From IMG/VR virus record IMGVR_UViG_3300022871_000705, positions 1-20,080 of that record: 20,080 nt of DNA; one strand, 5' to 3'. Under the pieces are notes generated by a model that saw nothing but the letters and a program-made list of their open reading frames with translations, ran no database searches and was not told the origin of the DNA. Every line of letters starts with the position of its first letter. The first letter of the stretch is position 1. The DNA is from a virus. Positions 3,253-16,445 of the stretch are shown here, one piece after another. The position numbers were made by a program, and so were the translations under genes.

Positions 3253-4716
3253 ATGAGTACAGATAAGATAAATCCAATTTGTATGGAGATGGGAAAAATT
3301 AATTTCGCGGGCAATGTTAACGTAATTCATGATAATTGGTACCAACATGTTAAAACAGATTCAGGGAAAACAGACGCAGTTGCATTACTAATATTATCAG
3401 ATATAGTTTACTGGTATACACCAACAGAGATCAGAAGTGAATCAACAGGCAAGACAATTGGGTATAGACAAAAATTCAAAGCAGACAAACTACAAAGATC
3501 ATATAAAGATTTTGAAAACCAATTTGGATTCTCACATATACAAATCAAGAGAGCAACAGATAGACTCGTAGCTCAAAATCTTATAACAAAGGAATTTAGA
3601 ACAGTTGAGTATGGTACATTACGAATGAATAATGTGCTATTTATGGAACCTGTATCAGCTACTATTGAATATATTACCAACAATATTGCACCTGACCCCT
3701 CTTTACTAAAAAGTAAACAGGTATCTACTGAAAAGTCAATAGGTGATAGTGAAAAAGTAAACATAAGTACAGAGACTACTCCAGAGATTACCCCAGAACA
3801 ATCTAAAGATTGTTCTACTGCATCTGAAGAACGATGCAGAGAAAAAGATGGTAATTTTATCAATCAAGAGAATAACCTTGAATCACAACGAAGCTCAGCC
3901 AAACAAAAACCTATAAAAAAGAAATCCCTTGATTCCAACCAAAGCAATGCAGCAACTTTAAGAAATAATACACCACGCAAAACCAAAAAATTAGTTAAGC
4001 CAGATTATATGTGCCCAAAAACTATACAACCTTACATTGATGTTTGGTCCACAATTACAGGTAGGCGTTATCGTGGTAAAAATACAAATACCTATAAACA
4101 AGATTGCCAAGCTATCAAACGTATGGTCAGTGGAACATTTTTCAATCCAAAAGATACACCAACTGTTGATAAGAAATATGATGGTGAAAAACTTACATTA
4201 GATGAATGGCGTGAGACTTTGGAATCATTTAGCCTTATGCGGAACAATGCCGATTATTTCCCAAAGAATAAAAAGAATATTAAAACATTGACGATTAAAT
4301 CTTTTCTGTATAATGCAATGTCTCCATGTACAATGAAAAGTTATTTTATCACCTGCATTGAGTCTGCACCGAAATTATTATCACCTCAACTAAAAGATTC
4401 AAACCCAGATTACACTGATTACGTAATCCAAGCATGTAAGAAAGTCTTTGATTGGGATCTTGGTAATGGTGATAGAGCAACAGCAATTAAATGTGCCAAC
4501 AAATTATCTAAATTCTTTGTTGATAATAAGCATAGGATCAGTATGTATGATATTCATTACAAATTTACAAACCAACAGGTGGATGAGTTGCTTACAATGC
4601 TTGAAAAGAATGAATCTCCTGAATATCCGGCAAAACCAACGTATCTGTATGGAAGTTTGACTTACGATAAATTATTGCCGGAACACCTTGATAGGGTGGG
4701 ATCATTGTTACAATAG
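3253..4716 (+). CDS. Winged-helix protein, candidate phage replication initiator
   Basis: A 487-residue protein starting at ATG 3253, six bases after an AGGAG that overlaps the previous stop. Residues about 40-135 form a winged-helix-like domain (DIVYWYTPTEIR, then FGFSHIQIKRATDRLVAQNLITKEFRT and a strand ending NNVLFMEP). This is the style of N-terminal domain found in phage replisome organisers and DnaD-like initiators. Residues about 165-255 are a polar, low-complexity linker. A C-terminal domain of about 230 residues begins near YIDVWSTITGRRYRGKNT. The three-part plan fits a DNA-binding initiator with a partner-binding C-terminus. The role is inferred from architecture and the nearby regulatory genes; I see no initiator catalytic motif and no clear origin inside the gene. 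Confidence 0.6.
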   Translation: MSTDKINPICMEMGKINFAGNVNVIHDNWYQHVKTDSGKTDAVALLILSDIVYWYTPTEIRSESTGKTIGYRQKFKADKLQRSYKDFENQFGFSHIQIKRATDRLVAQNLITKEFRTVEYGTLRMNNVLFMEPVSATIEYITNNIAPDPSLLKSKQVSTEKSIGDSEKVNISTETTPEITPEQSKDCSTASEERCREKDGNFINQENNLESQRSSAKQKPIKKKSLDSNQSNAATLRNNTPRKTKKLVKPDYMCPKTIQPYIDVWSTITGRRYRGKNTNTYKQDCQAIKRMVSGTFFNPKDTPTVDKKYDGEKLTLDEWRETLESFSLMRNNADYFPKNKKNIKTLTIKSFLYNAMSPCTMKSYFITCIESAPKLLSPQLKDSNPDYTDYVIQACKKVFDWDLGNGDRATAIKCANKLSKFFVDNKHRISMYDIHYKFTNQQVDELLTMLEKNESPEYPAKPTYLYGSLTYDKLLPEHLDRVGSLLQ

Positions 4717-4742
4717 CAATTATAAAGAAAGGAGGTAAAATA

Positions 4743-5069
4743 GTGTTCAATGTGTTAAGTTTATTTGATGGTATGAGTTGTGGTCAGATTGCACTAAACA
4801 GAGCTTGTATAAAGTATGATAATTACTTTGCATCTGAGGTGGATAAATATGCCATCAAAGTAACTCAGGCAAATTACCCAGATACTATTCAGTTGGGTGA
4901 TGTGTGCAAAGTAAAAAGTTCTGATTTACCAAAGATTGATTTGTTGATGGGTGGCAGTCCATGCCAAGGATTTAGCTTTGCTGGGAAACAACTTAATTTT
5001 GAAGATCCACGTAGTGCATTGTTTTTTGAATTTGTTAGATTATTGAAAGAGTGTAAACTAGATTATTGA
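4743..5069 (+). CDS. Cytosine-C5 DNA methyltransferase, N-terminal fragment (frameshifted)
   Basis: The gene begins at GTG 4743 after a strong AAAGGAGGT. The 108-residue product contains motif I (VLSLFDGMSCGQIAL), the acidic ASEVDKYA segment and catalytic motif IV (GGSPCQGFSF, nucleophile Cys74). This is diagnostic of Dcm-type enzymes that methylate C5 of cytosine in DNA. It stops early, after FEFVRLLKECK, because the 23-base tandem duplication at 5036-5081 shifts the frame. Removing one copy joins it in frame to the next fragment as LLKECKPRYFLLENV, giving an enzyme of 311 residues, normal for the family. As written, the fragment lacks motifs VI-X and should be inactive. Confidence 0.8.
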   Translation: MFNVLSLFDGMSCGQIALNRACIKYDNYFASEVDKYAIKVTQANYPDTIQLGDVCKVKSSDLPKIDLLMGGSPCQGFSFAGKQLNFEDPRSALFFEFVRLLKECKLDY

Positions 5070-5081
5070 AAGAGTGTAAAC
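5036..5081 (+). repeat. Exact 23-base tandem duplication that breaks the C5 methyltransferase
   Basis: Bases 5036-5058 and 5059-5081 are identical, head to tail, starting TAGATTATTG. Twenty-three is not a multiple of three, so the second copy shifts the reading frame and places a TGA at 5067-5069. The flanking coding sequence is otherwise intact. This looks like a recent replication-slippage event, and loss of one copy would restore the gene exactly. An assembly error is the main alternative. Confidence 0.92.
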
Positions 5082-5701
5082 CAAGGTATTTTTTGTTGGA
5101 AAATGTTAGAATGAAAACAAAGCACCTGAATATTATTTCAAGTTATTTGGATGTAAATCCCATCATGATAAATAGTGCTTTGGTATCTGCACAGAATAGA
5201 GTTCGTTATTATTGGACTAATATTCCTAATGTGGTGCAACCAAAAGATAATGACACCTATTTGGAAGATATATGGTCTGGTGGTAAGGAAATCACAGACA
5301 TCTTTTTTACTATGAAAATAGGAACAATGTCATATTTAAAAAGTAGGGGAGCAGTTCAGGAATTATCACAAAAAAACAAATGTTTAACTGGGGGGGGTCA
5401 GAATATAGCAAATTCTGGAGCAACCAACATAAAGATTGCCAAAAGTTACTTTAAATTAACTCCAACAGAATGTGAGAGATTACAAACAGTTCCAGATAAT
5501 TATACAGATCATGTTAGTAACTCACAACGGTATAAAATGCTTGGTAATGGGTGGACTGTTGATGTCATTGCTCATATTTTCAAGAGTTTGAAAACGAAGC
5601 CATCTCCAAAAGTAGATAAACCACAATGTCTTATTCCATGGAATGAGTTACAAACTGATATTACAATAGGCTGTGAGAGTTCACAGAATCAATCACAGTA
5701 G
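5066..5701 (+). CDS. Cytosine-C5 DNA methyltransferase, C-terminal fragment
   Basis: This is the second part of the methyltransferase begun at 4743. The frame opens at TTG 5066 inside the duplicated sequence and has no ribosome binding site of its own, so it is probably not translated independently. It carries motif VI (FLLENVRMK), motif VIII (NSALVSAQNRVRYYWTN), the target-recognition region (about residues 70-130 of the fragment), motif IX (ECERLQTVPDNYTD) and motif X (YKMLGNGWTVDVIAHIF). The C-terminal 35 residues are poorly conserved in style. All motifs after VI appear intact, which suggests the break is recent. Joined to the first fragment it would make a complete Dcm-type enzyme, perhaps protecting phage DNA from host restriction. 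Confidence 0.8.
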   Translation: MKECKPRYFLLENVRMKTKHLNIISSYLDVNPIMINSALVSAQNRVRYYWTNIPNVVQPKDNDTYLEDIWSGGKEITDIFFTMKIGTMSYLKSRGAVQELSQKNKCLTGGGQNIANSGATNIKIAKSYFKLTPTECERLQTVPDNYTDHVSNSQRYKMLGNGWTVDVIAHIFKSLKTKPSPKVDKPQCLIPWNELQTDITIGCESSQNQSQ

Positions 5702-5793
5702 CTGTCTATGAAAAACGTATACCATTGGGTGTATTTACAATTACTGGCGATCTTGGTTGAGATTAGAGCTTTTGAGAAGGAGAGGAGGTTGTC

Positions 5794-6102
5794 ATGAAAA
5801 TAGTAAAAGGTAAAAATGTGAAAGCAATACCAACTGAAACTGATAAAATGAAGGAGTTGTTCGCAGAAAATGCAGAATATATGGTTGAATTCTTTGACAA
5901 AACAATAGAACAGTATAGAAATGGAGAGCTTCTTAATTTTGTGGTAATTACAGAAACAGATGGTGAAGATGTTGAAGAAGTTGGTCTGGAAATTTTTGCG
6001 TTGATGCATTCAACACCAACACATCTTCGTGGTCTTTTGGGTGATGCCATTGTAACTGTAAGACGCAGAGAATGGGGAGAGGAAGACGAGGATGATGAAT
6101 AG
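5794..6102 (+). CDS. Hypothetical acidic protein
   Basis: A 102-residue protein with a strong GGAGAGGAGG ribosome binding site before ATG 5794. The first half is helical (DKMKELFAENAEYMVEFFDKTIEQYRNGE). The middle, LLNFVVITETDGEDVEEVGLEIF, looks like beta strands, and the tail is strongly acidic (EEDEDDE). Small phage proteins with this kind of hydrophobic strand followed by an acidic stretch are common and mostly uncharacterised. The stop TAG is followed immediately by the ATG of the next gene, so the two are probably co-translated. No known function. Confidence 0.75.
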   Translation: MKIVKGKNVKAIPTETDKMKELFAENAEYMVEFFDKTIEQYRNGELLNFVVITETDGEDVEEVGLEIFALMHSTPTHLRGLLGDAIVTVRRREWGEEDEDDE

Positions 6103-6387
6103 ATGGGAAACCAAAAATATAAACTTCTTCATAAAAAACTTGGGTTGTGTGTTGATTGTTCAGAGCCAGCCATTCCTTTTGAAACCAGATGTGCGAAACA
6201 CAGTTGGAATTTAAAACAGCAACATAATAGATGGTATAAAAATAATAGCATAGAACAAAATAGAATAGGAAGAGAACAAAAACAACAGTATAAGATCGAT
6301 AATCGGTGCGCATCTTGTTCAGCACCATTAGATCCAGATGCTGACGCAGGTTATATAACGTGTGTTAATTGTAGGTTAAATAGTTAA
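6103..6387 (+). CDS. Small protein with two predicted zinc sites
   Basis: A 94-residue basic protein whose ATG directly follows the previous stop. It has two metal-ligand clusters: Cys16, Cys19, Cys30 and His33 at the N-terminus, and a zinc-ribbon-like Cys69, Cys72, Cys87 and Cys90 at the C-terminus. They are joined by a Gln/Arg-rich, probably helical linker (about 36-65). This suggests a small nucleic-acid-binding or protein-interaction module. Similar zinc knuckles accompany HNH and recombination proteins, but no catalytic residues are visible here. Function unknown. Confidence 0.72.
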   Translation: MGNQKYKLLHKKLGLCVDCSEPAIPFETRCAKHSWNLKQQHNRWYKNNSIEQNRIGREQKQQYKIDNRCASCSAPLDPDADAGYITCVNCRLNS

Positions 6388-6408: not shown

Positions 6409-7269
6409 ATGAAATTATTAAAATGTGATTTACCAGTAAGTCATAATATTTTTTTATTCGGTGATTTGCACATAGGAACAGTTTTGTGTCATAGAGATGG
6501 AATACAACAATTAATTGAAATGATGCAAAGTTCATACCATTCTTGTACAAATAACTATGGTGTTTGTGTAGGAGATATGATTGAAGCTATCATGGTTGAT
6601 GACAAAAGGTATGATATTGAAACCACAGCTGAGCCTTTCCCTTTACAACAAGTCAAAGATGCAGTAAAAACGTTATCACCTATTGCAAGTAAGCTACTCT
6701 GTATACTAAAAGGGAATCACGAGCAAAAACTATGGAAATTTGGAGATTTAGCAAAGGAAATTGCTGATCAGTTAAATGTTCCTTATGGTACATGGACTGC
6801 GAAACTAACTATTAATGACAGAGAGAAGAAGAATAGTAAATATTTATATAAAATATTTGCTACTCATGGGAGAAAATCAATCACTTCAACTGCTGATGAT
6901 CCAAAACGAAGATTGGTTAACCAAAGGTTGATTTTGAAAAGGCACCTTAAATTTAAAGCAGCTGACTGTGTTGTTCAAGTTAAAGGACATACCCATAAGT
7001 TAATTGTGTGTGCTCCAGAGGAAGAACTTTACCTTATTGATGATGGTAAAAAGGTGAAACAAAAATATATTTCATCCAGCCAAAATGCTCCATATATTCA
7101 CCCTGATCATCGCTATTATATCAATTCAGGTAGCTTTTATAAATTATATGGAAAAGATGGAATTAGCTCCTATGCAGAGATTGCAGAATATGATCCACTT
7201 GAACTAGGATTTTGTATTTTAATGGTAAGAGATGGTAAAATTCAAGGTGTGGAGAGAATAGTACTGTAA
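6409..7269 (+). CDS. Calcineurin-like metallophosphoesterase
   Basis: A 286-residue protein. ATG 6409 is chosen because GGGGTG lies a suitable distance upstream; a GTG at 6400 is in frame but falls inside that site. All metal-binding motifs of the calcineurin-like fold are present: GDLHIG (18-23), GD (55-56) in VGDMIE, GNHE (102-105), ATHG (151-154) and GHTH (193-196). These coordinate two metal ions for phosphoester hydrolysis. Phages use such enzymes as nucleases, nucleotide phosphatases or end-processing enzymes; a role alongside the RNA ligase at 9994 (healing and sealing) is possible but not shown. The stop is followed by the secreted protease gene after 35 bases. Confidence 0.88.
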   Translation: MKLLKCDLPVSHNIFLFGDLHIGTVLCHRDGIQQLIEMMQSSYHSCTNNYGVCVGDMIEAIMVDDKRYDIETTAEPFPLQQVKDAVKTLSPIASKLLCILKGNHEQKLWKFGDLAKEIADQLNVPYGTWTAKLTINDREKKNSKYLYKIFATHGRKSITSTADDPKRRLVNQRLILKRHLKFKAADCVVQVKGHTHKLIVCAPEEELYLIDDGKKVKQKYISSSQNAPYIHPDHRYYINSGSFYKLYGKDGISSYAEIAEYDPLELGFCILMVRDGKIQGVERIVL

Positions 7270-7304: not shown

Positions 7305-9257
7305 ATGAAATCTTTAATTATTCTCACCCTGAGCACGTTATTGGCGTTGGGAGCTGTGAATGCATATGGTCTTAGTAAAAACGAAATCAAGATTGCTGCA
7401 AGACAGGCAAGCGTCCAACCTAGCTTCTTTATTCCTGTTATTAAGGTGTATTTTGCAACAACACTTGAAGAAGAAGAAAAAGAACAAACTATCGAAGAAG
7501 TAAAAAAGGAGATGGCTGAATTGATGGAGAAGCGTATCAAAGATGCTATTGAAAAAGCTACTGAAGATGCTAATGAGCCACGCTACCTAACCACCTTGAC
7601 AGATATTGAAAAATATGGAGTGCTTGGTAAAAGCCGTCAAGAGATCGCCCTCGGCACGATTGCACCAGAATATGCAAAATTCCCAGAGAAGGTCTTGGTT
7701 GTTTCTAAGATCGACAAAAAGAATATCAGTGCCTATGGGGAAGAATTTGAAAAAGATGTCCTTGCAATATCCGAAACTACTGGCGTTTCTGCGAGTAAAG
7801 CGAAAAATATGTTGAAGAAGTTGGCCACCGAGGGGTATCAGGTCACGAAAGATACAGTGAAACCTGAAACAGAGGTTGTCTTATTGCATTTCAATGGATG
7901 GGATGACTCTTACCCATCAACCCTTAAATGGGAGGTTCGGGTCAATGGCGGAAATAATCTGATTAGGGGTTATGACCCAAGGGGTATATTGATTATCCAA
8001 ACCTTGCCCGAAGACCAAGACGGTGAAATCCAAAGGGTTTATGTTAAGGCTGGATACTTCGACCTTAAAGAGAAATTCAAGTTTGTACCCCATGCAGAAA
8101 CAACTCTTATTGAGGAAAAGGAAGCCCTTGAAGAGGAGATAAAAGAACTCGAAAAGAAACTTGAAAAACCAGAGGTGATTGAAAAACGAGATATCACAAA
8201 GGCTACCATGTATGATGTGATGGTAGGATTTGTAAAATTAGACACCTTTTTTGTGCGGTCTGCGGCGTCCGGTGTTTACCTTGGAAGCATGAAGGTCAGT
8301 AAAGAGATGACAGGTTTTTCCTATGCTAATTTTCATACAATGTCAAGTGAATATAAGGGTGTAGTGCTAACAAATAGTCATGTTGGGGCTATGCTTTACC
8401 AAAGTTATATTTACGTTTCAAGTGATAAAGAAGTTATGTTTCTTGTCTTACCGGCATACGGTTTCATTCGATACACACAGGATAGTGATTCGATTGGTTC
8501 GCCTGTCGATATTTTAGCTATTGATGGCGCTCTCGTTGATAGCTATGACAATGATGCAATAATTTTAGTGACCTCTTCAATTAAAAGCCTTGAGAAATAT
8601 GCTGCAAAGTTGGGGGATTCAGACAAAGTAGAAGAAGGTTTGGAAGTATGTTCAGTCGGTAGCCCCATGATGGTACAGAAACAACTCACCGTTGGGGTTG
8701 TGTCAAATACTAATTATAGTGTCCTGAAATCTCCTATTGCTGATGGTTGGTTAGCAGGTGGGATGTCCCGTAGAGATTTCGAATGGGTCATGGCGAGTAC
8801 TATGTGGATTGACACAACCCAGGGAATTGGTGGGGTTTCCGGCAGTCCGGTCTATGCACTCGAAGGATCTCAGGCGGGAAAGGTAATAGGATTACGAAAT
8901 ATGGGTATGATGTCAAAACACGTTATAGCCGCACCGATTACCATGCAAAAGCCTGACCCCACATATTTGTTTGACAACATTGAATCTGGCCCATTACGAA
9001 TAGTATTACTCAAGAATTGGAAAGTGGTTTTCTCTGGTTTTGACTATAAAAATGCAATCTATAACATAGCAATAAAAGAGTTCACAGGAGAAGATGAAAC
9101 CGTAGAAAGTATATTACAGACTGGTAGCAGGCACTCGATTAGTGGGATGAACGGTGCTATCCCGATCAACTCTATTGTTGAATACCTTATGGAACGGGGG
9201 TTGCCTGTGGAGAAATTTGGCGCACGAAGTCCTTCCAGTAAATATTGGACAAGGTAG
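7305..9257 (+). CDS. Secreted trypsin-like serine protease
   Basis: A 650-residue protein with an AAGGAG site before ATG 7305. Residues 1-22 look like a Sec signal peptide (Lys3, hydrophobic stretch, ...AVNAYG). Residues about 50-90 and 264-296 are Glu/Lys-rich and probably coiled-coil. The C-terminal half carries a chymotrypsin-fold triad: His359 in LTNSHVGA, a probable Asp417 in YDNDAIILVTSS, and Ser512 in GGVSGSPVYA, which matches the GxSG(S/G)P motif. No PDZ domain is evident. Its codon use looks richer in G and C than its neighbours, suggesting acquisition. A secreted or periplasmic protease is unusual next to replication genes; it could act on envelope or capsid proteins or on host surface proteins. 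Substrate unknown. Confidence 0.8.
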   Translation: MKSLIILTLSTLLALGAVNAYGLSKNEIKIAARQASVQPSFFIPVIKVYFATTLEEEEKEQTIEEVKKEMAELMEKRIKDAIEKATEDANEPRYLTTLTDIEKYGVLGKSRQEIALGTIAPEYAKFPEKVLVVSKIDKKNISAYGEEFEKDVLAISETTGVSASKAKNMLKKLATEGYQVTKDTVKPETEVVLLHFNGWDDSYPSTLKWEVRVNGGNNLIRGYDPRGILIIQTLPEDQDGEIQRVYVKAGYFDLKEKFKFVPHAETTLIEEKEALEEEIKELEKKLEKPEVIEKRDITKATMYDVMVGFVKLDTFFVRSAASGVYLGSMKVSKEMTGFSYANFHTMSSEYKGVVLTNSHVGAMLYQSYIYVSSDKEVMFLVLPAYGFIRYTQDSDSIGSPVDILAIDGALVDSYDNDAIILVTSSIKSLEKYAAKLGDSDKVEEGLEVCSVGSPMMVQKQLTVGVVSNTNYSVLKSPIADGWLAGGMSRRDFEWVMASTMWIDTTQGIGGVSGSPVYALEGSQAGKVIGLRNMGMMSKHVIAAPITMQKPDPTYLFDNIESGPLRIVLLKNWKVVFSGFDYKNAIYNIAIKEFTGEDETVESILQTGSRHSISGMNGAIPINSIVEYLMERGLPVEKFGARSPSSKYWTR

Positions 9258-9269
9258 TAAACTAATAAG

Positions 9270-9318
9270 TGGGGATAGGGTCATTCCCGAACACTGGCAA
9301 ACCTTGCCAGTTTCCCCA
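9270..9318 (+). other. Compact three-way-junction-like hairpin element
   Basis: An outer stem TGGGGA (9270-9275) with TCCCCA (9313-9318) encloses two hairpins: GGG-tcatt-CCC (9278-9288) and a perfect 8-base stem ACTGGCAA-ACC-TTGCCAGT (9293-9311). It starts 12 bases after the protease stop and ends before the HNH gene. There is no U-run, so it is not a standard intrinsic terminator. It may block readthrough, protect the mRNA 3' end, or belong to the HNH insertion. The core bases of a hammerhead ribozyme are absent. Confidence 0.5.
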
Positions 9319-9351: not shown

Positions 9352-9834
9352 ATGAAGGAGATAAATCTAACACAAGGCCAAGTGGCACTCGTAGATGATG
9401 AAGAGTATGAAGAACTTAATAAATACAAGTGGTTTGCACATGACAATTACGGATGGACATTTTATGCAAGGTGAACGGGTAGAAAAGCTGATGGTAAAAG
9501 ATATCTCATTCAAATGCACAGGGTTATTCTCAATGCCCCAAAAGATATGTTCGTAGATCATATTGACAGCAATGGATTAAATAATCAAAGGTCAAATTTA
9601 AGGCTTTGTACTAACCAACAGAATAACAGACATGCCCGCCCATATTCAAATGGTAGCTCTAAATTTAAGGGAGTTTGTTGGCATAAACGAATTAAAGAAT
9701 GGCAAGCTAATATTAGAATCGATGGCAAACTCAAACACATTGGTTATTTTAAAAATGAAAAAGACGCCGCTTTAGCATACAATGTAAAGGCATTGGAATA
9801 TTTTGGAGAATTTGCATTACCTAATGAAATCTAA
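9352..9834 (+). pseudogene. HNH/AP2 homing endonuclease interrupted by an in-frame TGA
   Basis: ATG 9352 follows a GAAAGGTGG site and opens a reading frame (MKEINLTQGQVALVDDEEY...) that would continue to 9834, about 160 residues, except for a TGA at 9472-9474 (codon 41), where an Arg is expected; a CGA-to-TGA change would explain it. After the stop the frame shows the HNH core (MHRVIL, DHIDSNGLNNQRSNLRLCT) and a C-terminal AP2-like DNA-binding domain (KGVCWHKRIKEWQANIRIDG...). Homologues begin with this N-terminal segment, so the break is real. Translation could restart at ATG 9514, keeping the HNH core and AP2 domain, but no good ribosome binding site precedes it. TGA ends other genes here, so general recoding is unlikely. 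Confidence 0.75.
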
Positions 9835-9993: not shown

Positions 9994-11031
9994 ATGGATA
10001 AAAAGCACACGAAGTTCACAAAAATCCCGCAGTTCAGGGATGTGATTAGAAATGTTACTCGCCAAGCACAATTTCAGGGTCTTGACGAGAATGATGAACC
10101 TATTTTAAATCCAAATGCAAAAAAGCCAACTATTACCTTTACCGGGACTGTAAAATTACATGGAAGTAACTCGTCGATCTCTACTAATGGAGATGAAATT
10201 TGGTATCAATCAAGAAAGAGAATCATTACAGTTGATAAAGATAATTGTGGATTTGCTCAGTTTTGTACAGCAAGAAAAGAATCTATTGGTAAACTATTTA
10301 CAGTAGTAGATATGAGAGTTGGTGAACCAGATGCTATCGTATGTATATTCGGTGAAATCTGTGGACAAGGTGTACAGAAGGGAGTATCCATTTCAGCACT
10401 ACCAAGAATGTTTGTTATTTTTGCTGTGAAGGTTGTGCCAAAAGAAGGTGTTTCCTATTACATTGATTCAAAGGGTTTAAGTGATCCAGATAATTTAATC
10501 TATAATATCTATGATTTCCAGACTTTTGAAGTAGAGGTTGATTTTGAATATCCGAGCATAGCACAGAATAAATTTGTAGAATTAGTAAATGAAGTTGAAA
10601 GGGAATGTCCTGTCGGGAAAGCTTTGGGAGTTACAGAAGGCAATACAATAGGAGAAGGAATTGTATGGACTGCTTATTTTGATGGAGTAAAACATTCCAT
10701 GAAAACTAAGGGAGAGAAACATTCTTCATCAAGAACCAAGACTATTGCACCTATAGATATTGAAAGACTTAATTCAATACAAGAGTTTGTTGAGTATGCT
10801 GTTACTAATAATAGGCTTAACCAAGCCATAGCAGAGATATTTGAAGGTGCTGAACCAGTAATACAGCAGATGAGTGATTTCTTAAAGTGGATTATAAGAG
10901 ATATTGCAGATGAAGAAGTGGGTGTATTGGAAGAGAATGGGCTAATCCTAAAAGATGTTACCCGAGCAGTCTCAAATAAAGCTAGGTCATGGTTTCAGGA
11001 ATTACTAAATAAAAACACAGGATTGAAATAA
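9994..11031 (+). CDS. Rnl2-like RNA ligase
   Basis: A 345-residue protein starting at ATG 9994 after AAAAGGAGGT. It has the nucleotidyltransferase motifs of covalent ligases: motif I TVKLHGSNSS with the adenylated Lys at residue 54 (KxHG as in T4 Rnl2), FGEICG (119-124) as a motif III-like acidic strand, EGIVW (221-225) as motif IV and MKTKG (236-240) as motif V. A helical C-terminal domain of about 90 residues follows. Rnl2-type enzymes seal nicks with a 3'-OH and 5'-phosphate in RNA duplexes, and phages use them to repair damaged tRNAs or mRNAs. The C-terminal WFQELLNKN sequence is repeated 720 bases downstream, beyond the HNH gene. Confidence 0.88.
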   Translation: MDKKHTKFTKIPQFRDVIRNVTRQAQFQGLDENDEPILNPNAKKPTITFTGTVKLHGSNSSISTNGDEIWYQSRKRIITVDKDNCGFAQFCTARKESIGKLFTVVDMRVGEPDAIVCIFGEICGQGVQKGVSISALPRMFVIFAVKVVPKEGVSYYIDSKGLSDPDNLIYNIYDFQTFEVEVDFEYPSIAQNKFVELVNEVERECPVGKALGVTEGNTIGEGIVWTAYFDGVKHSMKTKGEKHSSSRTKTIAPIDIERLNSIQEFVEYAVTNNRLNQAIAEIFEGAEPVIQQMSDFLKWIIRDIADEEVGVLEENGLILKDVTRAVSNKARSWFQELLNKNTGLK

Positions 11032-11082: not shown

Positions 11083-11113
11083 AGGTGATAAAACCGTGAG
11101 GGTTCTACCACCT
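11083..11113 (+). promoter_or_regulatory. Hairpin in the leader of the HNH gene
   Basis: AGGTG (11083-11087) pairs with CACCT (11109-11113), and AACC (11092-11095) with GGTT (11101-11104), separated by symmetric 4-base internal loops and closed by a 5-base loop GTGAG. The GTG at 11096, which would extend the HNH gene, lies in this loop; that supports a start at 11147. The fold may be a translational control element or a 3'-end barrier after the ligase gene. Confidence 0.45.
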
Positions 11114-11146
11114 CAATTCACAATCACATATATGAGGTATGTTACT

Positions 11147-11728
11147 ATGAACAAAATTATAGCACAAAACCAATCTAGTAAAGTCAAGTATAAAACTCTT
11201 ACCCAGAAACGTCTCAAAGAACTTTTAACCTATAATCCCAAGACTGGATTATTTACCAGGAAAATGACGTGTAATAATGGTATAAAAATTGGTGCCGTGG
11301 CAGGGCACAAAAAATCTGATGGATACATTGTTATCAGAGTTGATAGGAAATTATATCATGCTTCTATATTAGCGTTCCTCTGGATGAAAGGTTTTATACC
11401 TGAATATGAAGTTGATCATAAAAACCGTGTTACTAGTGACAATAGATGGGAAAATCTACGTCATGTTACACATCAATGTAATGGAAGAAATCGTTCTGTT
11501 GGTAAAAACAACACATCTGGAATTATTGGAGTACATTGGGATAAACAAAGCAAAGGATGGCGTGCTAGAATTTCTACTGATGGTAATAGCAACCAAGAAA
11601 ATCTTGGTTGTTTTCCTAATTTAAAAGATGCTGCAAGAGCTAGATGGTACGCAGAAATAAAGTATAATTTCCCTGATTGTAATAGCACCTCTTCTGCATT
11701 TCTTTTTTTACAAGAAAATAAAAAATAG
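11147..11728 (+). CDS. HNH homing endonuclease with AP2-like domain
   Basis: A 193-residue protein from ATG 11147, chosen because GAGGT lies 8 bases upstream and the longer GTG start at 11096 falls in a hairpin loop. The protein contains an HNH core: HASILAFLWMKGFIPEYEVDHKNRVTSDNRWENLR, with His of the DH pair and the closing Asn (N-x8-N pattern). A C-terminal AP2-like DNA-binding region follows (SGIIGVHWDKQSKGWRARIS...NLGCFPNLKDAARARWYAE). Free-standing HNH-AP2 genes are typical phage homing endonucleases that cut intron- or gene-free cognate sites and are copied in during repair. It sits exactly between the ligase gene and a second copy of the ligase 3' end, which supports a recent insertion there. 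Confidence 0.8.
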   Translation: MNKIIAQNQSSKVKYKTLTQKRLKELLTYNPKTGLFTRKMTCNNGIKIGAVAGHKKSDGYIVIRVDRKLYHASILAFLWMKGFIPEYEVDHKNRVTSDNRWENLRHVTHQCNGRNRSVGKNNTSGIIGVHWDKQSKGWRARISTDGNSNQENLGCFPNLKDAARARWYAEIKYNFPDCNSTSSAFLFLQENKK

Positions 11729-14328: not shown

Positions 14329-14982
14329 ATGTTAGCATACAGCGAAATTAATTACAAAGAGTTAAAAGCAATGTGTATTGAAACAAATTTAGGGGGGGTA
14401 CTGGAAAATAATATTAAATATGTAGCGGTAAGTGGGGTACAATTGTATGATGACTTCATTGCTGCAATTGAAGGCTTGAATAAGGATCTTCAAGAAGAAT
14501 TGCCTCGCAAGGTTATCGATTACTATAATAAGGTGATGTTTGATGAAGAACCTGAAGAGGAACAAAAGGAGTTAGATTTTGAACCAGTAGAAGCAAGGGA
14601 AGAATTTAATGTTCCTGTCCCCGAAGAGGAAGAGGAAGCTGATCCTATCCCTGATCCTGTTGTTAAAGTAAAGGCAGAGCCTAAGCCTGTTGTAGACGAG
14701 GAAGAAGGCGAAGAGGTAGAGCTTGAAACAGTGCCTATTAAAAAGGTAATGCGTCTGTCTACAACTCCAATGACCCCTAAAATTGAGGATAGCAAACTCA
14801 CTATCAATTTTAAGGAATTGGATGTGACAGAAGTTTTTGACTTGCCTGTAACGGAAGATAAGGAAAAACTTGGGGTAGTGCGGAAAAAGGCAATGGCTTT
14901 TGCAAAAGAGAGTGGAGCAACAAAAGGCCAGCTCTGCAACATTTCTAAGATCCTTAATCAGGCTGGTTACTATATGAGATAA
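14329..14982 (+). CDS. Acidic protein of unknown function upstream of the structured RNAs
   Basis: A 217-residue protein with a strong GAAAGGAGG site before ATG 14329. Residues 1-70 and the last 40 (VVRKKAMAFAKESGATKGQLCNISKILNQAGYYMR) look folded. Between them, about residues 72-135, lies a Glu/Pro-rich disordered stretch (EEPEEEQKE, PEEEEEADPIPDP, VVDEEEGEEVELE). This resembles a two-domain protein joined by an acidic linker. The first of two structured RNAs starts five bases after its stop, so they share a transcript. It could be an RNA- or DNA-mimic partner or a structural protein; nothing in it is diagnostic. Confidence 0.7.
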   Translation: MLAYSEINYKELKAMCIETNLGGVLENNIKYVAVSGVQLYDDFIAAIEGLNKDLQEELPRKVIDYYNKVMFDEEPEEEQKELDFEPVEAREEFNVPVPEEEEEADPIPDPVVKVKAEPKPVVDEEEGEEVELETVPIKKVMRLSTTPMTPKIEDSKLTINFKELDVTEVFDLPVTEDKEKLGVVRKKAMAFAKESGATKGQLCNISKILNQAGYYMR

Positions 14983-14986
14983 AATA

Positions 14987-15161
14987 TTGTGGCAGTGGTG
15001 GAAAATGGTAAGGCTATTCAGGGGTATATCCCGACATCTTGCCAGTAGACGCTGGTTTAGGTTCCTGACAGGTGCGAAAGGCAGAATATCGCCAATCTAA
15101 GAACTCGTGGGTCGCTCCCAGAATGTCCTGTCATCCAGGTATTAAATCCTGGCTGCCACAA
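14987..15161 (+). ncRNA. Structured RNA candidate 1 (multi-branched, tRNA-like 3' end)
   Basis: The terminal stem TTGTGGCAG (14987-14995) with CTGCCACAA (15153-15161) is nine perfect pairs and encloses 157 bases. Inside are TGGTAAG (15006-15012) with CTTGCCA (15038-15044, one G-U pair) capped by a GGG/CCC hairpin; TGACAGG (15066-15072) with CCTGTCA (15127-15133), seven perfect pairs, itself holding GGC/GCC and TGGG/CCCA hairpins; and CCAGG (15135-15139) with CCTGG (15148-15152). The last hairpin stacks directly on the terminal stem, as a T-arm does on an acceptor stem, but the loop has eight bases and lacks TTC. No CCA end is encoded. There is no coding frame here. I recognise no known RNA family. 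Confidence 0.7.
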
Positions 15162-15176
15162 CAACTTTAATCAAGT

Positions 15177-15342
15177 GTGCGCCCAGCGGAATGTAGGAGG
15201 TCGTGCGAAGGACGTTTGGTAGGGGTGGCTGACATGGCGGGATCACCGCGAGCCTAACTTGGCACTCATGTTGCGATGTGAGTGATTAGACCCAGGAACA
15301 GCATCTACCAGCCTCACACAATCCGGGTCGACCTGGGCGCAC
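15177..15342 (+). ncRNA. Structured RNA candidate 2 (GC-rich, multi-branched)
   Basis: GTGCGCCCAG (15177-15186) and CTGGGCGCAC (15333-15342) form ten perfect pairs around 146 bases that are visibly richer in G and C than any neighbouring gene. Inside, TGGTAG (15217-15222) pairs with CTACCA (15305-15310) and encloses a hairpin of GGCT/AGCC around GCGG-GATCA-CCGC (15227-15254) and a hairpin CACTCA/TGAGTG (15263-15284). A CGT-GCGAAGG-ACG hairpin (15202-15214) lies in the 5' part. The octamer ACTTTAAT follows each of the two RNA candidates. The gene-free stretch ends in the ribosome binding site of the methyltransferase. No known family recognised. Confidence 0.7.
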
Positions 15343-15374
15343 TTTAATACTTAAATTTTAAAGGAAAAAACAGA

Positions 15375-16445
15375 ATGATACCTTACTGCAAAACTAAAAA
15401 GGGTGTCCTTTATTATGGGGATGCCATTGATATTCCTACAAGAATCAAACCAAACAGTGTTCATTGTGTGGTGACAAGCCCCCCATATTGGGGGAAAGTT
15501 ATTTATGGTGTAGAAGGGGAGCTTGGATTAGATGAAACACCATTACTATACGTCAATAAATTAGTAGAAATTTTTAGGGGGATTAGAAAAGTTTTACACC
15601 CAACTGGTACTGTGTGGCTAAATATTGGGGATACTAATTGTGTGCCAAGTACAGTACGAGAAACAGTGTTAGGAATGAAACCAGGAGTTCCTGCTAAGAA
15701 TAGAATAGGTGTGCCATGGAAAGTACTATTCGCATTACAAGAGGATGGTTGGAATTTTAGATGCGATATTGTTTGGTGGCGTAAAAATTCACCGCGTGAA
15801 CCTGTCAGAGATAGACCAACATATGAACATGAATATATGTTTTTGCTGACAAAAAAACAGCACTATTTTTATGATAAGATTGCAGTAGAGTTACCATATA
15901 ATGGGTACTTCGCAGGGACGCGTGGGAATATAGCCAAAGAAAGTGGCGGTATGTTTCATGGAGGGCATAATATAAAAGCAGAGCTAACAGGAAGGAATTT
16001 AGGATCTGTTTGGGATATAGCAACACAAGGTAGAACAGATTCACATTACTCTGCTTTCCCAGATGAATTAGCAGCAAGATGTATTAAGGCAGGAACATCG
16101 TTAAAAGGATGTTGTAGTAATTGCTATGCACCAATAAAACGAATGACAGAACGTAAGGATAAAGCAAGTCCTTTGAAAACTATTGGATGGGAACCTACCT
16201 GCAAATGTAATGCAAAAATTATACCATGCACTGTGCTTGATCCATTTATGGGTAGAGGAACTGTCGCACTAACAGCAGAAACGTTAGGTAGAAGTTGGAT
16301 TGGTGCAGAATTGGGTGAAGAATCTTGTGAACTTATAAAACAAAACTTAACCAATAGAAAAGTTGGATTGTTACCATCAACAAAAGTACAAGATGGTTTG
16401 TTTAAAGGCGATGAAATAGATATTGAGATAAAAGGAGAAAAATAA
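15375..16445 (+). CDS. DNA methyltransferase, N4-cytosine/N6-adenine type
   Basis: A 356-residue protein with AAAGGA upstream of ATG 15375. The catalytic motif VTSPPYWGK (33-41, core SPPY) comes before the SAM-binding DPFMGRGT (289-296), the order of the beta class. The S/TSPPYW form favours N4-cytosine methylation, but N6-adenine is possible. Between them the target-recognition region contains Cys246, Cys247, Cys250, Cys276, Cys278 and Cys285, probably a zinc site just before the SAM motif. It lacks a partner restriction enzyme, so it is likely an orphan phage methyltransferase that protects or marks the genome. The clamp gene starts directly after its stop. Confidence 0.85.
   Translation: MIPYCKTKKGVLYYGDAIDIPTRIKPNSVHCVVTSPPYWGKVIYGVEGELGLDETPLLYVNKLVEIFRGIRKVLHPTGTVWLNIGDTNCVPSTVRETVLGMKPGVPAKNRIGVPWKVLFALQEDGWNFRCDIVWWRKNSPREPVRDRPTYEHEYMFLLTKKQHYFYDKIAVELPYNGYFAGTRGNIAKESGGMFHGGHNIKAELTGRNLGSVWDIATQGRTDSHYSAFPDELAARCIKAGTSLKGCCSNCYAPIKRMTERKDKASPLKTIGWEPTCKCNAKIIPCTVLDPFMGRGTVALTAETLGRSWIGAELGEESCELIKQNLTNRKVGLLPSTKVQDGLFKGDEIDIEIKGEK

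Follow-up and report, generated by a model that had tools for sequence, protein, structure and literature searches.

Between a 217-aa gene and a DNA methyltransferase gene of the viral DNA analyzed here (the window, 20,080 nt) lie two consecutive structured RNA candidates, RNA1 and RNA2. The first of them is, on balance, probably a member of a widespread and little-annotated class of phage RNAs, in which a tRNA-Leu-like frame encloses a large, folded and rapidly exchanged interior. From sequence comparison and covariation, we regard the following as established for the class: a frame with compensatory pairing; the lack of an anticodon arm, except in about 2 of 61 members (among the matches listed); interiors that have turned over at a single syntenic location; and at least one conserved domain that is portable, being found both in the tRNA frame and on plain stems. 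The features of the locus are the following.

14329-14982, + strand: upstream 217-aa gene, without Pfam or PHROG match
14987-15161, + strand: RNA1, tRNA-framed structured RNA of about 171-175 nt (unconstrained MFE; same-design relatives at the same site)
14987-14995 TTGTGGCAG / 15153-15161 CTGCCACAA, + strand: RNA1 closing stem, 9 bp (base-by-base check)
14989-14995, + strand: acceptor 5' strand GTGGCAG, pairing with 15153-15159 (covariation in 54 sequences)
14998-15000, + strand: D-stem 5' strand GTG, preceded by TG (tRNA positions 8-9), pairing with CGC 15050-15052 (MFE)
15006-15044, + strand: D-loop insert forming a hairpin, TGGTAAGG...TCTTGCCA (MFE; similar insert in L021, L150, L151, L149 and L004)
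15046-15052, + strand: TAGACGC, 3' D-arm signature common to tRNA-Leu and the family (exact match to the family consensus)
15066-15133, + strand: large branched arm before the T-arm, closed by TGACAGG/CCTGTCA (MFE)
15135-15152, + strand: T-arm position, CCAGG-TATTAAAT-CCTGG, with a non-canonical T-loop (MFE; relatives)
15153-15159, + strand: CTGCCAC, 3' strand of the acceptor, without an encoded CCA (sequence; covariation)
15177-15342, + strand: RNA2, on a plain perfect 10-bp closing stem (fold and stem check)
15177-15186 GTGCGCCCAG / 15333-15342 CTGGGCGCAC, + strand: RNA2 closing stem, 10 bp (base-by-base check)
15375-16445, + strand: downstream DNA methyltransferase (N6_N4_Mtase)

The preliminary description of this DNA had placed two structured RNAs in a gene-free stretch of a phage replication region. 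No ORF of at least 50 aa is found within 14983-15374 (392 nt), and a DnaB-like helicase, an N4/N6 methyltransferase and a polymerase processivity factor are encoded nearby, so that both points stand. The strong upstream promoter proposed at the same time does not: three promoter-like sites were found where 2.7 are expected, which is the chance level. The stem of RNA1 starts 5 nt past the stop codon of the 217-aa gene, and a closing stem about 5 nt after the upstream stop is found in L004 as well as in the window, which suggests processing out of a polycistronic transcript. Elsewhere in the window, a C5 cytosine methyltransferase appears, from its translations, to be split into overlapping ORFs (4743-5069 and 5066-5701), and two ORFs read by eye as HNH-like homing endonucleases (9514-9834 and 11096-11728) lie on either side of an RNA ligase gene (9994-11031).

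Both perfect terminal stems are present at the coordinates first reported. The composition is also unlike that of the surrounding genes, as had been claimed: the GC content is 0.497 for the stretch 14983-15374, 0.497 for RNA1 and 0.596 for RNA2, as compared to 0.39 and 0.38 in the neighboring genes and 0.365 in the whole window. The assertion that these folds are far more than chance is borne out by the closing stems, since three perfect stems of at least 9 bp with a spacing of 140-180 nt were observed versus 0.06 expected from shuffles, but not by the fold energies (z against shuffles of -2.45 for RNA1, -1.78 for RNA2 and -1.55 for the whole gap). By themselves, the latter are only moderately beyond chance, and the decisive evidence comes from the relatives. 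The minus strand of 14983-15374 folds with a z of -3.58, better than the coding strand.

Read from its sequence, RNA1 is tRNA-like, with a shell of the tRNA-Leu type whose decoding part is replaced by another folded domain. Its unconstrained fold comprises the 9-bp stem, a short helix GGTG/CGCT, the hairpin of the D-loop and the large TGACAGG...CCTGTCA arm, and places the hairpin of the T-arm position directly on the closing stem. The 9-bp stem corresponds to a 7-bp acceptor with two pairs outside, and this acceptor adjoins the 5-bp T-arm, the loop of which is canonical in relatives only. In the predicted fold, the oversized arm occupies the place of the anticodon and variable arms. All features of the class are found in RNA1: a paired 7-bp acceptor, TG, the TAGACGC D-arm, the T-arm position, an interior of at least 80 nt, and no anticodon arm, as no canonical one (5-bp stem, 7-nt loop, U33) can be formed. 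With a non-canonical T-loop and a D-stem of only 3 bp, RNA1 itself may fall short of a complete tRNA elbow. ARAGORN called no tRNA and no tmRNA for RNA1, and a search of RNA1 and RNA2 against Rfam 15 gave no match at or above the gathering score, the single match being at chance level (E 1.1). The preliminary view that neither segment is a known RNA is thus upheld as far as Rfam families are concerned; its exclusion of a tRNA has to be amended for RNA1, in which the acceptor, D-arm and T-arm position of a tRNA are present and the anticodon arm is absent. With introns allowed, ARAGORN returned 105 'tRNAs' in the window, a non-informative outcome.

Relatives of the window, with flanking proteins near-identical or 82-93% identical, have another insert where the 217-aa gene is followed by that of the methyltransferase. 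RNAs with an acceptor and a T-arm are found at this junction in each case, of 171 nt in the window, 136 nt in L003 and 193 nt in L004/L005. The acceptors of L003 and L004/L005 are paired and of the TGGCAG type, and their T-arms (CTAGG-TTTGAAT-CCTAG in L003, CCAGG-TTCAAAT-CCTGG in L004/L005) have canonical T-loops. Their interiors are no more similar to that of RNA1 than shuffled sequence is. Such unalike interiors at a shared junction indicate that the frame was kept and the interior exchanged. No relative of the RNA1 interior was found beyond one near-identical contig, nor any homologous DNA in isolated phages, where a query with the frame alone matches ordinary tRNAs. The methyltransferase gene of L004 contains a 1.1-kb in-frame, intein-like insertion (5037-6161), which is absent from L005 and from the window.

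Searches with DNA patterns turned up RNAs of this design in dozens of unrelated phages. With the first pattern, modeled on RNA1, a single remote relative was obtained. This is L021, a contig of 36 kb that has an RNA1-like D-loop insert, TAGACGC and a canonical T-arm, and that, from a reading of its ORF list, also encodes a DNA methylase. The second (TGGCGGAATTGG...GGTTCGARTCC, with an over-long gap) matched at least 120 contigs. Once matches touching ARAGORN tRNAs were removed, this motif scan of viral contigs comprised at least 61 distinct RNAs of 133-162 nt with a paired acceptor; as the pattern fixes the tRNA-Leu D-arm, the spread of the class seen here is a sample and not a measurement. 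Among the matches listed and without any acceptor filter, pairing is 7/7 in 57 and 6/7 in 4 of the 70 distinct non-ARAGORN matches, whereas none of the listed matches that overlap canonical tRNAs pairs at 6/7 or better. Distinct acceptor pairs are 7/7 complementary in 39 of 52 cases, again among the matches listed, versus about 1 with shuffled partners. A descriptor scan yielded 133 sites in 1.25 Mb versus 0 in the shuffle.

Covariation among relatives, which the preliminary description had named as a check, is what the family displays. In 54 aligned frames, RNA1 included, 98.8% of the acceptor and T-stem cells are paired, the covariation score is 0.888 as against 0.212 with shuffled partners and at most 0.18 when partners are slid, and double changes occur at every acceptor pair. 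ARAGORN called none of the 61 family members among the matches listed, and an anticodon arm could be recovered in about 2 of these 61, even after deletion of a segment. With Rfam, only the generic tRNA model responds to the family, and its cut-off is reached by some members (L037, L050, L103, L113 and L146), not by most. A description of the class was not found in the openly licensed literature.

Within the family, the D-loop-insert subtype of RNA1 recurs in L021, L150 and L151, the last two having unrelated acceptors (TGGTGTG/CACACCA and GCTGAGG/TCTCAGC); the insert itself, of the type GGYAA...TTGYC followed by ATTGG, is shared by L021, L150, L151, L149 and L004. Two contigs, L055 and L060, carry about 10 such RNAs each (77-147 nt), mostly with the acceptor AGTCAGG/CCTGACT and interspersed with 14-16 canonical tRNAs. 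The flanking ORFs are on the same strand as the tRNA-framed RNA in 97 of 109 cases. No dedicated partner protein emerged from these neighborhoods, no neighbor family occurring in more than 2 of 95 proteins. Other RNA elements were seen close by. In L086, two tandem tRNA-framed RNAs separated by 6 nt (9510-9646 and 9653-9812) are preceded by a type II hammerhead ribozyme (9217-9291), and a conserved RNA, GTGTTGT...ACAACACAGRGGACTTCTC, adjoins tRNA-framed RNAs in L055 (about 6943-7045), L060 (minus strand, about 4685-4790), L094 (minus strand, 1815) and L109 (364-455).

The interiors are highly diverse. The 61 examined fall into 55 clusters without detectable similarity (among the matches listed), no k-mer is common to them above the level of shuffles, and no single common topology was found, a weak excess being all that was seen. 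They outscore shuffles in folding (mean z -0.93 +/- 0.13), the effect being weak when they are scored in the context of the frame (mean z -0.26 +/- 0.13). Given this weak in-frame score and the lack of a common motif, some interiors could be filler.

One of them, designated cargo C, is a conserved domain of about 100 nt present in 44 viral contigs, 32 of them distinct (for example L153 7207-7324 and L157 5205-5321). It resides in a tRNA frame in L109, L169 and L170 (acceptor AGTCAGG), in L157 (GGTTGGG) and probably in L155 (AGCCATG). Outside the frame, it is found as a free domain immediately 5' of tRNA-framed RNAs, and also on plain closing stems, as in L156 (GACCGTCA/TGACGGTC). This occurrence in the frame, on plain stems and free implies that interiors can be real, portable RNA domains. 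The helices of cargo C covary (0.325 versus 0.106), and columns 38-41 of alignment A4 read as a self-complementary 4-mer in 31 of the 32 sequences; seven distinct palindromes are represented, and the background is 3%. Such a palindromic loop is likely to be a homodimer contact, by which the RNA would pair with its own copy. Cargo C has no match in Rfam and was not found in the phage group of RNA1.

For RNA2 the picture differs from what had been assumed, namely that both segments are of a single kind: a placement in the family was obtained for RNA1 only. Plain-stemmed RNAs adjoin tRNA-framed ones in L021 (2778-2892, with 11-bp arms) and, from a reading of the sequence, in L003 (about 4672-4853), and we therefore treat RNA2 as a probable companion; most likely, it is a companion RNA borne on a plain closing stem. 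It contains GCGGAAT at 15186-15192 and CCGG-GTCGA-CCTGG at 15323-15336, which bear a weak resemblance to a D-arm and to a degenerate T-arm and may be relics of a tRNA frame. The palindrome GGTCGACC of RNA2 (15326-15333) was set aside, since chance alone would supply about one 8-mer of this kind.

Four other explanations of the tRNA-framed RNAs have to be weighed. The strongest is a tRNA decoy, in which the frame itself would be functional as a mimic of tRNA-Leu that occupies or misdirects a tRNA-binding factor (a synthetase, EF-Tu, or a tRNA modification or tRNA-cleaving defense enzyme), the interior doing no more than abolish decoding. LeuRS identity is not known to depend on the anticodon, and a decoy would agree with a constant frame around unrelated interiors and with the one acceptor common to many copies in L055 and L060. 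However, the interiors are structured, at least one conserved and covarying domain also exists outside the frame, and acceptors vary so widely between phages that no single tRNA is mimicked. Cargo C thus argues against a decoy for at least part of the family, and we consider this explanation unlikely. An interrupted tRNA gene, whose interior would be an intron spliced out to give a working tRNA-Leu, would account for the tRNA-Leu features of the frame, and L059 and L063 do rejoin to a canonical anticodon arm. Yet 2 of 61 rejoinable members (among the matches listed) compare with 3.1 expected by chance, RNA1 is not rejoinable, and the roughly 10 copies that have a common acceptor within a single contig would amount to the same tRNA many times over; such an origin is very improbable.

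The YrlA Y RNAs, which also occur in phages, are non-coding and contain a tRNA-like module. They reportedly mimic tRNA and come in pairs, so that RNA1 and RNA2 might be imagined as a Ro60-binding Y RNA with its tRNA-like module and a second Y RNA. The tRNA-framed RNAs differ from them in having no association with Ro60/TROVE: of 40 records with such RNAs, some of them possibly fragments, one was found to contain a TROVE (Ro60) gene, and the window contains none. In that sole case the gene is tens to hundreds of kb away, the RNA being at 2.4 kb and TROVE at 311 kb in a record of 341 kb. No Rfam match of the Y RNA kind was obtained either, and we give this reading hardly any credit. The same low credit goes to decaying tRNA pseudogenes or integration scars that have retained tRNA ends. 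Fragments of tRNAs are indeed common at phage integration sites (PMC9897764), but here the acceptor and T-stem pairing is kept through double changes, 133 sites were found versus 0 in shuffled sequence, and a scar would leave a 3' fragment rather than both strands and a D-arm around unrelated interiors.

Among described RNAs, the closest known case would be T4 species 1 RNA (rnaC), not a proven relative. RNAs C and D of T4 (species 1 and 2, rnaC/rnaD) are two adjacent stable RNAs of 139 and 119 nt, annotated without function. Like the RNAs described here, rnaC has tRNA-like sequence at its 3' side: its T-arm, CCGGG-TTCGAAT-CCCGG, is canonical, and the acceptor-like strand behind it could form internal pairs (CGGAACG/CGTTTCG). 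It has, however, no Leu-type D-arm, its tRNA-like closure involves the 3' 91 nt only, it lies inside a tRNA cluster, and no sequence similarity was found in the phage collection. With tRNA-Leu (RF00005), the family shares the acceptor, positions 8-9, the D-arm GCG..TAGACGC and the T-arm, some members scoring above the RF00005 cut-off; it differs by the missing anticodon arm, an interior twice the normal size and the lack of ARAGORN calls, and RNA1 has no RF00005 match. The idea of a tRNA-like shell enclosing a second functional domain is that of tmRNA, but no tmRNA was called by ARAGORN or Rfam, the family has a real D-arm, and the G3-U70 alanine signature of tmRNA is not one of its features, so that we regard a tmRNA as unlikely. 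In the laboratory 'tRNA scaffold', a foreign RNA replaces the anticodon arm and is stabilized by the tRNA shell; that system is engineered, whereas the RNAs described here are natural, widespread and phage-encoded.

Returning to the framed-interior class, its members are probably non-decoding RNAs cut from polycistronic mRNA by tRNA-processing enzymes, and host machinery is likely to handle them. RNA1 would be co-transcribed with the upstream 217-aa gene, RNase P would cut its 5' end, and the tRNA 3'-processing and CCA-adding machinery would finish its 3' end, on which CCA is not encoded. Its tRNA-like ends would keep RNA1 stable, the frame thereby stabilizing an exchangeable cargo. Given the lack of a dedicated partner protein in the neighborhood, the displayed domain may act in trans, either by way of host machinery or on RNA of the host or the phage. 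We tentatively propose, as a possibility that falls somewhat short of a probable one, a modular phage RNA system in which constant tRNA frames or plain long stems are interchangeable carriers of folded effector RNAs. Some of these, such as cargo C, would probably self-assemble by a palindromic loop; cargo would be swapped between phages in an arms-race-like manner, and arrays of such RNAs delivered during infection.

Since the frame is stretched past their models, tRNA finders and Rfam miss most members, and a common class of structured RNA in environmental phages has for the most part escaped annotation. Should the cargo act in trans, this would be a new phage route to stable, fast-evolving regulatory or anti-host RNAs that uses host tRNA processing, and a natural counterpart of the engineered tRNA scaffold. 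The class may further be relevant to the long-standing question of what function the T4 stable RNAs C and D have.

A separate observation in the contig set concerns tRNA genes that look circularly permuted, with a T-arm and acceptor 3' strand, a linker of 3-20 nt and, behind it, a D-arm preceded by the matching acceptor 5' strand. They were seen in L118 (T-arms at 7169, 9033 and 9202), L126 (643), L144 (2781), L044 (minus strand, 3565 and 5046), L014 (4187) and L054 (2733 and 2891). When the halves are rejoined, 10 of 19 candidates form a canonical anticodon arm, versus 4% for shuffled halves; an ARAGORN test of the rejoined genes gave no discrimination. These genes may alternatively be read as trans-interrupted or intron-bearing. 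Neighboring tRNA-like genes with swapped halves were also noted in L035 (7573-7800), L057 (234-500) and L092 (minus strand, 7765-7960), where the 5' acceptor strand pairs with the 3' acceptor strand of the next gene. In L118, L126 and L144, a conserved GTTACTTC-like motif precedes the 3' halves.
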